A stretch of 33,072 nt of DNA, from positions 1 through 33,072 of the forward strand of contig JAUXQT010000051.1 in NCBI GenBank assembly GCA_030682135.1, in the 5' to 3' direction. This DNA comes from Nitrospirota bacterium (lineage in GTDB: Bacteria; Nitrospirota; Nitrospiria; Nitrospirales; Nitrospiraceae). Under the pieces are notes generated by a model. It was not told the DNA's origin. It made no database searches and saw only the letters and a program-made list of their open reading frames with translations. Shown one piece after another: positions 15,481-19,641 of the stretch; the stretch's first letter is position 1, and each line of letters begins with the position of its first letter. The position numbers and the translations under genes are program-made.

Positions 15481-16725
15481 CTATAACTTGCAGGTATTCT
15501 CCGCAACCCGCCCCACAACCAGATCTCCGGCAACCGTGGCCAGAATCTTGTAATGCCCCAGTCCCAGCTCCTTCCCGAACGCTTCGCCGACGAGGACATC
15601 CTGCACATGTTGATGGTCCCATGAACGGAAGAATGATTGGCCCACTTTCAATCCATCGAACTCATGCCCTTCCAGAGTCTTGATCAAGGCCGAAGTCTCT
15701 GTCGTCCCGGCCCGTTGAATCGCTTCCAGGATCTGAGTCATCGCCGCATAGCCGAGATAACAACGCGACGTCGGGGTATGGTTGTACTTGTCGATCACGC
15801 CCTGGATGAACCGTTTCGAGCTATCCCTGTCGATCTTGGGATCCCAGATCAGACCCCAGATGCCGGCATTATTGGCATAACCCAACGGGCGACCGATCTG
15901 TTCGCCTGCGATCATGCCCCCCACGCCGATCTTCTCTTTTGCCAACTCCAGCTTCGCGTAGGCCTTCAATGCATGCACAAGATCCCATCCGTAGAGATTC
16001 AAAATGATCGCCGTGGGGTTCTTGGCTTTCGCCTCGGTAAAAGCCGATGCAAAATCGGTCGAGCCGAATGGCGTGACCGTCTCTCCAACGAAATCGACCG
16101 CGAGGGACTTGCCTGCCTCCAACATTGCCTGAGCCGCCGCCTTGCCATCGACCGTGGCAGCCGTGATCAGGTACCAGCGAGTCCCGTAGGCTTTCGCAAT
16201 GTGTGGTGCGACAGCCTGTGCCATCATCCTTGCATTGGGCATGAACACGAAGGTCTGCCGGTTACAGGCTGTTCCCGTCAGCTCGGGAAGATGCGCACCA
16301 GTCACCATGAACAGCGTATTTTCCTTCTGCGCCAGGGCACTGACGGCCAACGTGCAGTCTCCGTTGAAGGTGCCCATCAGCACATCGACCCGGTCCTCTT
16401 TGATGAACTTCGTCGCCACCTTTACGGCAGTTTCCGGATTCGACGCATCATCCGCTTCGAGGATGACGACCGGCCGGCCCAGTACACCACCTCTCTTGTT
16501 GAAGAGATCCACGGCCACATTGGCGCCATGGACATCGTGTATCGACGACGTTTTGTAGGGGCTCGACAACGGATCGAGTATGCCGATCTTGATCGGCTCA
16601 CCAGTGGCGGCGAGACTCGTCCTCCCCGTGAGTCCCATCACTTGTCCGATCAGGTCCCCGAACACGACGGCACCTCCGGTTGCTGCGGAAAGTTGCAAGA
16701 AACGTCTGCGTGAAAAATCGGTCAT
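15481..16725 (-). CDS. Tat-exported ABC transporter substrate-binding protein (amide/urea/branched-chain type)
   Basis: A 414-residue periplasmic binding protein of the branched-chain amino acid/amide/urea superfamily (periplasmic-binding type 1 fold). The N-terminus carries a twin-arginine signal (SRRRFLQLSAATGGAVVFGDL). The mature body opens with IKIGILDPLSSPYKTSS and has family stretches such as NKRGGVLGRPVVILEADDASNPETAV. Relatives bind urea, short amides or amino acids; the ligand here cannot be told. No permease or ATPase genes are near, so it may feed a transporter elsewhere or act as a sensor. An AGGAGGG site precedes the start. It follows the PNPOx-like gene by 59 bp on the same strand. 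Confidence 0.85.
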   Translation of the reverse strand: MTDFSRRRFLQLSAATGGAVVFGDLIGQVMGLTGRTSLAATGEPIKIGILDPLSSPYKTSSIHDVHGANVAVDLFNKRGGVLGRPVVILEADDASNPETAVKVATKFIKEDRVDVLMGTFNGDCTLAVSALAQKENTLFMVTGAHLPELTGTACNRQTFVFMPNARMMAQAVAPHIAKAYGTRWYLITAATVDGKAAAQAMLEAGKSLAVDFVGETVTPFGSTDFASAFTEAKAKNPTAIILNLYGWDLVHALKAYAKLELAKEKIGVGGMIAGEQIGRPLGYANNAGIWGLIWDPKIDRDSSKRFIQGVIDKYNHTPTSRCYLGYAAMTQILEAIQRAGTTETSALIKTLEGHEFDGLKVGQSFFRSWDHQHVQDVLVGEAFGKELGLGHYKILATVAGDLVVGRVAENTCKL

Positions 16726-16784: not shown

Positions 16785-17384
16785 TCACGATTTCCTCGAA
16801 TGAAGTTCGGCCTCCAGTTCGGCAATACGCTTTCTCAACGGACCGGCGAGCTCCTCGACCTCTTCTGCCGAATAACGCGGCGTAATATACTTCGGGCAGT
16901 TCCAGTCGAATGAGACCACATCGATGAAGACCAGCCGCTCTACGCTCGACCGCATCTTTGGGTCGGCCAGCGTCGAAACAAGTTCTGGATGGGCGCGGGC
17001 GTCTTCGACGCGGGCGTGGCCAAGAATCTTCAAGCGCGTTCTGTTCTGGTAGTCCATGAGAAACAGCGCTACGCGGTCGTTCCCCGAGACATTGCCGGTC
17101 GTGAGGAGTTGCCGATTGCCCTTGTAGTCAGCAAAGGCCAGGGTCGTCTCGTCGATCAATCGCAAAAATCCTGCAGGTCCGCCTCGATGCTGAACATAAG
17201 GCCACCCGCTTTCACTGATCGATCCCATGTAAAAGCTGTCCCGAGCGGCAATGAATTCCGCTTCTGCATGGCCCAGCGGGTCTCGCTCTGGGGCGCCCGC
17301 AATCATGCCTGCCTGTCCGTAATATTGGGTCTGCGCACGGCACACGGCATCCGTGAACATCAGATCGAGGTACTTCGTTGCCAT
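16785..17384 (-). CDS. Pyridoxamine 5'-phosphate oxidase-like flavoprotein
   Basis: A 199-residue protein of the PNPOx-like split-barrel flavin-binding superfamily. Visible features include AARDSFYMGSISESGWPYVQHRGGPAGFLRLID (about residues 46-78), which matches the FMN-binding strand pattern of the family, then NDRVALFLMDYQNRTRLKILGHARV (about 103-127), and a helical tail ending AELEAELHSRKS. It is not the vitamin B6 enzyme PdxH itself by pattern; members often reduce small molecules with FMN or F420. The start has an AGGAAG site. It lies downstream of dsrE and a hairpin, and could be part of the same sigma-54-controlled group. Confidence 0.83.
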   Translation of the reverse strand: MATKYLDLMFTDAVCRAQTQYYGQAGMIAGAPERDPLGHAEAEFIAARDSFYMGSISESGWPYVQHRGGPAGFLRLIDETTLAFADYKGNRQLLTTGNVSGNDRVALFLMDYQNRTRLKILGHARVEDARAHPELVSTLADPKMRSSVERLVFIDVVSFDWNCPKYITPRYSAEEVEELAGPLRKRIAELEAELHSRKS

Positions 17385-17419: not shown

Positions 17420-17446
17420 CAGGAGACGGCATGAGGCCGTCTCCTG
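17420..17446 (-). terminator. Perfect hairpin between dsrE and the PNPOx gene
   Basis: Arms CAGGAGACGGC (17420-17430) and GCCGTCTCCTG (17436-17446) pair perfectly over 11 bp with a 5-base loop. There is no T-run on the minus strand, so it may be a weak terminator or an mRNA-stability element after dsrE rather than a full stop. Confidence 0.55.
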
Positions 17447-17455
17447 AGAATTGAC

Positions 17456-17830
17456 TCAAAATACGACCGTCTGCCAGCCTTCCGCCAAGTAGCGACGCAA
17501 GCTTAAGAGGCCTGCTGTCCCGGCCAATGCATGGTCCTTCACAATCGGGACTCCGCAAGCCCTGACACTTTCCGTCGCTCCAAAGACCTCCGCACAACCG
17601 CATGAGGCGCCTTGCACGACATCGCGAACGGCGTTGTAGAGGCCATTGGCCGGATGCGAGAGTTTGGTCAACTCAGCTGGCCAGCGTGTGCCGGCGCCGT
17701 TGAACACTACGGCGACTTCATCGCCCTTCTGTTTACATTCGGACGCGAGGGCCAGCGCATTAAAGACTCGCCCAAGCGCTTCTTCGGAACCAGTCTTCGG
17801 ATCGGACAGAATGATGATGGCAGTTTTCAT
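17456..17830 (-). CDS. DsrE family protein
   Basis: A 124-residue cytoplasmic protein of the DsrE/DsrF-like fold. The opening MKTAIIILSDPKTGSEEALGRVFNALALA and the strand GDEVAVVFNGAGTRW match the family. It has three cysteines near the usual active site region (C77 and C79 in ASCGCA, and C92 in VRACGVPI), which could carry persulfide or act in redox chemistry; relatives take part in sulfur transfer, but many have no known role. An AAGGAG site lies five bases before the start. A near-consensus sigma-54 promoter lies about 70 bp upstream, next to the GAF-type activator gene, which suggests inducible expression. Confidence 0.85.
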   Translation of the reverse strand: MKTAIIILSDPKTGSEEALGRVFNALALASECKQKGDEVAVVFNGAGTRWPAELTKLSHPANGLYNAVRDVVQGASCGCAEVFGATESVRACGVPIVKDHALAGTAGLLSLRRYLAEGWQTVVF

Positions 17831-17898
17831 GGATGCTCCTTAGATGGAATGAGTGCTGGGATATTTCAATGCGATGGCCATCGCTGTCCTGCACTACC

Positions 17899-17913
17899 GC
17901 AAGGCCGATGCCA
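17899..17913 (-). promoter_or_regulatory. Sigma-54 promoter upstream of dsrE
   Basis: On the minus strand TGGCATCGGCCTTGC carries -24 TGGCA and -12 TTGC with the correct GG-N10-GC spacing, and is preceded by a T-run. This is close to the sigma-54 consensus TGGCAC-N5-TTGC. Transcription would start near 17888, 58 nt before the dsrE ATG. The activator gene at 18070-19641 lies directly upstream. Confidence 0.72.
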
Positions 17914-18022
17914 AAAAGCATGACAGGCATGAAATGGGAGGAATGAAGAGAGGTATCAACGACTTCAGTGATGTGCAGACAAGAAGACACTTAGCACAGC
18001 GATGCGATCGTCCCACGGAATA

Positions 18023-18036
18023 TCGTAGCGCCACGA
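18023..18036. promoter_or_regulatory. Candidate upstream activator site for the dsrE promoter
   Basis: TCGTAGCGCCACGA is a 14-bp palindrome with one mismatched pair. It lies about 125 bp upstream of the -12 element of the sigma-54 promoter at 17899-17913, a distance typical for enhancer sites of sigma-54 activators. Assignment to the neighbouring activator is inference. Confidence 0.4.
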
Positions 18037-18069: not shown

Positions 18070-19641
18070 TTAGGTGAGACGGGGTTTTTGAATGCCGAGC
18101 TTCTTCATGCGAGAGCGGAGAGTGTTGGGATGGAGATCCAGCCGGGTGGCTGCGCCCTGCTTCCCTTCAATGACCCAGTTCACCTCCTGGAGGACATAGA
18201 GAATATGCGCCCGTTCGACTTCTTCCATGGTCCCTTCGCGCTGTGAGGGTGCAGGCCCCGAATGGAGGAATGCGTCATCGATCTGCAGCATCGGTCCGTT
18301 TGCGAGAATCGTCGCCCGTTCGATCACATTTTCCAGTTCTCGAATGTTGCCGGGCCATGAATAGGCCTTCAGACGGTCCATGGTCGCCTGAGACACGCCG
18401 TCAAATCGCTTGCCCAGTTTGGATGACAACTTGGCGATGAAGTGGCTGACCAACGGTGGAATATCAGCGGCACGGGCAGACAGGGGTGGCACCTCGATCG
18501 GAAAGACATTCAGCCGGTAGAGGAGATCGGCCCGGAAGGAACCGGCCTTCACCGCTGCATGCAGGTCACGATTAGTAGCCGCGATTACCCGCACATCGAC
18601 TTTCGTCGAATGACCGCTGCCGACCCGCTCGAACTCTCGCTCCTGCAACACCCGCAGCAGTTTCACTTGCGCATCCAGCGGAAGTTCTCCCACTTCGTCC
18701 AGGAAGATCGTCCCTCCATCCGCCAACTCAAATCTGCCAATGCGGCGCTGTAATGCCCCGGTAAACGATCCCTTCTCATGTCCGAAGAGTTCGCTCTCGA
18801 GGAGGTTCGCGGGGATCGCGCCGCAGTTCACCTTCACCAGGGAGCGAGCCTTGCGCGGGCTCATGTGGTGAATCGCCCTGGCGATCAGTTCCTTGCCCGT
18901 CCCGGTGTCCCCGCGGATGAGGACCGTCGAGTCGGTGGGTGCAACCTGCTCGATCGATCTCAGCACGGCTTTGATGCTCTGGCTCTCGCCGATGATCTCT
19001 TCGAAGTTATGCTCGAGTTTGATCTCTTCACGAAGGTAGAGATTCTCGGCTTGCAGCCGATCTTTGAGCTGTTGAACTTCCGTAAACAGCTGCGCGTTCT
19101 TGATTGCAATCGCGGCCTCATTGGCAAAGACCGCCAGTCGCTCGAACTCCGCTTCGCTCAGCGGCCGGCGTCCGAACATTGCGATGACGCCGAGTAGTTC
19201 CCAGCGGAACTTCAGCGGTTGGCCGGCAAAGGAGCGGAGACCATTGTCGGTCATCCATTGTTTATTTGGAAGCCGATCGTCGCCGAGGACGTCGTTCGTA
19301 AAAATGGCGCCGGTTCCTTGCGCGATTTTTCCGATCTTCAATGCGCCAAGCGGAATGCGGCGATATTCTCCGTTGAGGTTGTTGTAGAGCCCGGCGCTCG
19401 CCTCAAGATGCAGACAGCGGGTCCGATTCGCACAGTCGGCTGCTTTGTAACAGTCGGCACAGAGATCGCCGGGACCTAACAGCCAGATACGGGCGAAGGC
19501 TGCATCCAGCTCCTCCACCAACCCCTGCGTGATCGTGGCCAGTACGACTTGGAGGTCGAGACTTGACACCATCTGGAGTGTGATCCGCTCCAGCACGTCG
19601 GGAGATTGGGAAGGAGGAGTCGAGGGGGGAACAGTGTTCAT
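18070..19641 (-). CDS. GAF-domain sigma-54-dependent transcriptional activator
   Basis: A 523-residue enhancer-binding protein. Domains in order: a GAF sensor (about 15-185), a short coiled linker (about 185-210), an AAA+ domain with Walker A GDTGTGKE (244-251), sigma-54 contact loop GSFTGA (291-296, Ser in place of the common Ala) and Walker B TIFLDEVGE, and a C-terminal Fis-type helix-turn-helix (about 480-520). The GAF domain holds a four-cysteine cluster (C61, C64, C70, C76), which could bind metal, an Fe-S cluster or respond to redox change. It lies upstream of dsrE, whose promoter looks sigma-54 dependent. Its ribosome site lies inside a perfect hairpin. Confidence 0.93.
   Translation of the reverse strand: MNTVPPSTPPSQSPDVLERITLQMVSSLDLQVVLATITQGLVEELDAAFARIWLLGPGDLCADCYKAADCANRTRCLHLEASAGLYNNLNGEYRRIPLGALKIGKIAQGTGAIFTNDVLGDDRLPNKQWMTDNGLRSFAGQPLKFRWELLGVIAMFGRRPLSEAEFERLAVFANEAAIAIKNAQLFTEVQQLKDRLQAENLYLREEIKLEHNFEEIIGESQSIKAVLRSIEQVAPTDSTVLIRGDTGTGKELIARAIHHMSPRKARSLVKVNCGAIPANLLESELFGHEKGSFTGALQRRIGRFELADGGTIFLDEVGELPLDAQVKLLRVLQEREFERVGSGHSTKVDVRVIAATNRDLHAAVKAGSFRADLLYRLNVFPIEVPPLSARAADIPPLVSHFIAKLSSKLGKRFDGVSQATMDRLKAYSWPGNIRELENVIERATILANGPMLQIDDAFLHSGPAPSQREGTMEEVERAHILYVLQEVNWVIEGKQGAATRLDLHPNTLRSRMKKLGIQKPRLT

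Follow-up and report, generated by a model that had tools for sequence, protein, structure and literature searches.

Organization of the dsrE locus

The window (the whole 33,072-nucleotide stretch of DNA analyzed here) contains on its minus strand the gene of a 523-residue activator (18070..19641) followed, after an intergenic gap of 239 bp, by a dsrE-like gene (17456..17830), the first of an operon. The activator is composed of a GAF domain (PF01590), a Sigma54_activat AAA+ domain (PF00158) and a Fis-type HTH_8 domain (PF02954). No Pfam family matches the dsrE product, and PF02635 gives 22.2 bits on its paralogue from the same genome, against a gathering score of 22.7; the AlphaFold model of the dsrE product (pLDDT 94) has DsrE and DsrF as its top structural matches, which are weak (E about 0.003). 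The second gene of the operon encodes a PNPOx-like FMN protein (16785..17384, minus strand; PF01243, PNPOx_N) and the third a TAT-signal periplasmic binding protein of the Peripla_BP_6 type (15481..16725, minus strand; PF13458). In nearly all loci extending that far the PNPOx gene adjoins dsrE and only some relatives have the binding-protein gene, dsrE-PNPOx being the constant part of the putative target. The genome, which its closest named relatives place in Nitrospira, has a single copy of rpoN (one PF04552 match, E 1.4e-55), and 21 of its proteins carry a strong Sigma54_activat domain.

A candidate sigma-54 promoter upstream of dsrE

A closer inspection of the gap between the activator gene and dsrE showed a -24/-12 element, TGGCATCGGCCTTGCG, on the minus strand at 17913-17898. 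The first 15 bases match the 16-mer sigma-54 consensus exactly, the last W being the sole miss, and TGGCATCGGCCTTGC (17913-17899) has the canonical GG-N10-GC spacing. The near-consensus site with exact -24/-12 spacing described in the original prediction is in place, at 68 nt from its GC to the dsrE ATG (17830). The window contains five sites with at most one mismatch to the 16-mer, compared with 2.0 expected from shuffles, and the genome 14 exact matches, compared with five for reversed-pattern controls. Some of the genomic matches are therefore due to chance, and the match taken alone is suggestive but short of decisive. The scoring of sigma-54 sites relied on weights set by hand. A near-exact twin of the promoter at position 22568 of contig 111 (C111:22568) was discarded as a second target, the surrounding 9 kb containing no dyads of the kind described below.

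Tandem dyads as the putative enhancer

Alignment of the orthologous gaps revealed two 16-bp dyads arranged in tandem, with the consensus CYACGA-N4-TCGTRG. In the window, dyad 1 (CCACTAAGTTTCGTGG, 18046-18031, minus strand) and dyad 2 (CTACGATATTCCGTGG, 18028-18013, minus strand) are spaced by 18 bp from centre to centre, the start of dyad 2 being 115 bp upstream of the -24/-12 site. The 14-bp near-palindrome that had been proposed as the enhancer, TCGTAGCGCCACGA (18023-18036), is present, with six of its seven pairs matching, but it consists of the inner half-sites of both dyads and represents their junction and not the binding unit itself. The distance from dyad to dyad is variable whereas the N4 within each dyad is invariant, which rules out the palindrome as the binding unit and points to the tandem dyads as the enhancer. 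The tandem 34-mer, with up to three mismatches allowed, occurs once in the 3.75-Mb genome, at the dsrE operon. A wide regulon based on single dyads was ruled out, since 34 sites with one mismatch were found in the genome compared with 54 for the reversed control.

Conserved geometry in loci of type A

Loci with an orthologue of the window activator upstream of dsrE on the same strand were designated type A (n = 29). Dyad pairs were sought in them at 18 bp, with any promoter distance from 60 to 200 accepted. All 29 loci have the tandem dyads (18 bp apart, with 2 bp between them) and the -24/-12 site, the second dyad beginning 114-116 bp before the latter; the comparison with related genomes thus upholds the promoter as predicted and replaces the palindrome with the dyad pair. 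Mean pairwise identity reaches 79% in the dyads and 81% in the promoter, while the linker between them is near-random (median aligned identity of 0.49, against 0.44 when shuffled). Therefore, it is the length of the linker that is kept and not its sequence. The distance from the promoter to the dsrE ATG ranges from 83 to 605 bp, and in three relatives (L038, L080 and L085) a gene for a YHS-domain protein lies between promoter and dsrE, with the dyad-promoter block staying ahead of it.

This arrangement bears on the origin of the dsrE transcript. The -24/-12 match could be fortuitous and dsrE could depend on a different sigma factor or on transcripts continuing from the activator gene, given that some of the exact genomic matches arise by chance and that activator and dsrE are co-directional, so that some read-through is possible. 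The retention of the site in every type-A locus at a fixed distance from the dyads, together with the lack of any sigma-70-like site in the scanned interval between activator and dsrE, makes this highly improbable, and a functional sigma-54 promoter is strongly supported by these comparisons. In type A the activator adjoins the promoter, and part of their co-occurrence therefore reflects joint inheritance, a weakness from which the linker comparison and the evidence from the paralogous system are free.

A paralogous system of type B

The same genome encodes a second activator (contig 92), 47% identical to the first over its length and divergent from a cluster formed by CMD/AhpD, isochorismatase, dsrE, PNPOx and binding-protein genes. 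Relatives of this activator, designated type B, were found in Nitrospira, Verrucomicrobiota and Planctomycetota. The same dyad appears in two or three copies in the 16 type-B regions examined, most of them with start-to-start distances of 23 and 17 bp (7 and 1 bp between dyads); a comparable pair was found once in 8000 shuffled regions, these being simple mononucleotide shuffles. A -24/-12-like site begins 82-84 bp after the last dyad in 16/16 loci from the three phyla, its -12 half being degenerate in several loci of Verrucomicrobiota. In the genome of the window the type-B array occurs once, at the contig 92 cluster. Between the geometries of types A and B there is a difference of 32 bp, or roughly three turns of the helix, which as a single comparison is only suggestive. 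In Nitrospira moscoviensis the type-B activator matches as two overlapping pieces (L108:2713-4343), which suggests a frameshift or a sequencing error in the gene.

The type-B dyads are found in the divergent region, close to where the activator gene begins, and those of type A after its end; the dyads thus track the promoter and the activator and not a gene end. This placement argues against the dyads acting as an RNA terminator hairpin for the activator transcript instead of as a DNA enhancer. Such a hairpin would agree with the position of the type-A dyads directly after the activator stop codon and with the folding of the dyad region, whose RNA folds somewhat better than shuffles (z -2.4), but neither a T-tract nor a terminator call was found at the dyads and a terminator would not account for their fixed distance to the promoter. 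We regard termination as a very unlikely role for the dyads.

Loci without either activator

The tandem dyads followed by the promoter at a fixed distance were present in 27/27 loci of type A and 15/15 of type B within one scored collection (14 of the latter were scored by script and the remaining one, L131, by a separate region check, as its array falls outside the 4 kb covered by that scan), and in none of the 33 scored dsrE-PNPOx loci lacking both activators. Upstream of the cassette these 33 loci carry a divergent gene of the CGNR/ABATE type (12 loci), a TetR gene (nine), an HxlR gene (two) or no recognised regulator (10). Examples of a divergent CGNR/ABATE, TetR or HxlR gene before dsrE-PNPOx are L069:5263-5946, L093:5235-5939, L113:3506-4138 and L116:5465-5899, the first of them being the nearest case (97% identity between its dsrE product and the one encoded in the window). 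On the dsrE tree, which is poorly resolved, the type of regulator changes many times, and six independent contrasts between loci with and without an enhancer-binding protein (bEBP) lie on supported branches. This number of contrasts is the only informative outcome of a sign test on the tree, the two traits compared being identical in every scored locus.

Dyads of this kind are bound by many regulators, and a different one might bind them here while the neighbouring activator acts elsewhere. That the dyads accompany both activators in two different placements, and are absent from the 33 scored loci without them, renders this improbable, if somewhat less so than a chance promoter or a terminator. 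That a single small cassette comes under unrelated regulators is informative as to the conditions to which it responds. Speculatively, and by association, the operon could be a stress or detoxification cassette, which would fit the AhpD-like, isochorismatase-like and flavoprotein neighbours and the TetR and HxlR alternatives.

The activator and related regulators

The AAA+ domain of the window activator, which is the sigma-54 interaction domain, matches PF00158 with an E of 1.2e-73. Its sigma-54 contact loop reads GSFTGA (residue 291) where GAFTGA is usual; GSFTGA is found in 15/20 type-A and 2/13 type-B proteins, and GAFTGA in 5/20 of type A. The sensor domain, whose modelled fold is that of a GAF domain, contains Cys61, Cys64, Cys70 and Cys76 in a CxxC-x5-C-x5-C motif (residues 61-76). 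All four cysteines are kept in 20/20 type-A and 7/13 type-B proteins, and the CxxC pair in the 33 aligned. As the most economical guess, the motif suggests a cluster that reads a thiol or metal redox signal.

The protein scores under the NCBIfam equivalog cut-offs of NorR (367 vs 476 bits), FhlA (424 vs 830 bits, half of the cut-off) and NifA (396 vs 529 bits), and is therefore not assigned to any of the three. It resembles NorR, the NO-sensing regulator of norVW, in having one GAF domain, an AAA+ domain and a Fis-type HTH, with a sigma-54 promoter preceded by several enhancer sites (PMC2941729), but the target genes differ and the four-cysteine GAF motif belongs to the window activator. FhlA, the formate hydrogenlyase activator, is the best-scoring NCBIfam model, with a match that spans AAA+ and HTH; however, the window activator has one GAF domain and no formate hydrogenlyase genes in its target operon. 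NifA shares the GAF-AAA+-Fis layout and a sigma-54 promoter with upstream activator sequences, but the dyad is unlike the repeats of the TGT/ACA type reported for NifA and others (PMC6615313).

Proposed mechanism

These observations favour, with a probability of about 0.88, a one-component sigma-54 switch in which the activator at 18070-19641, acting on the tandem dyads, would drive dsrE-PNPOx, and the binding-protein gene where present, from the -24/-12 promoter. The circuit of activator, enhancer, promoter and dsrE operon put forward in the original prediction is supported by comparative conservation, geometry and co-occurrence, except that the binding-protein gene is not a constant target. 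We infer from the arrangement of the elements that the activator very probably binds both tandem sites and turns on the operon via RpoN. In NorR the AAA+ domain is kept repressed by the GAF domain as long as the signal is absent, and three enhancer sites are needed for assembly (PMC2941729). By analogy, the GAF-AAA+-Fis activator would sit as dimers on the two CYACGA-N4-TCGTRG dyads, 115 bp upstream of the promoter; a signal would relieve the GAF domain and allow an ATPase ring to form, and the ring would loop to contact the RpoN-RNA polymerase, with the transcript of dsrE-PNPOx and the binding-protein gene starting near 17887. More speculatively, the four-cysteine GAF cluster may respond to redox or thiol chemistry as its signal. 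A broader proposal, which we hold only tentatively, is that an undescribed bEBP subfamily senses redox changes through a metal or an Fe-S centre in its four-cysteine GAF domain, and controls a dsrE-PNPOx cassette that is widespread and has repeatedly changed regulator (bEBP-A, bEBP-B, CGNR/ABATE, TetR, HxlR) in Nitrospira, Verrucomicrobiota and Planctomycetota.

Switches composed of a GAF-containing bEBP and sigma-54 are a familiar type, but the dsrE-operon example appears to be undescribed. Open-literature searches returned no description of this circuit, and neither Nitrospira nor DsrE appears in the main text of a 2025 survey of sigma-54 regulons. In earlier work, rpoN of Nitrospira was co-expressed in a quorum-sensing screen that left targets of such kind undefined. 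The locus would thus offer a sigma-54 target defined precisely enough to be tested, complete with enhancer code and geometry, in the nitrite-oxidising Nitrospira, where the searches found no such circuit described, together with the code by which two related activators, spread over three phyla, probably recognise their sites.

Additional features of the cassette

A perfect 11-bp stem-loop (17420..17446, no strand assigned), unique in the genome, lies between dsrE and PNPOx, and 49/64 relatives have a stem of at least 9 bp at the corresponding position. The sequences of these stems are quite different among relatives and they are present whatever the upstream regulator; the element is possibly an mRNA stabiliser or an element for differential expression. 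Tandem duplication of the module or of parts of it (activator, dsrE, PNPOx) was seen in two Nitrospira genomes (L065:6001-10775 and L079:887-9294).
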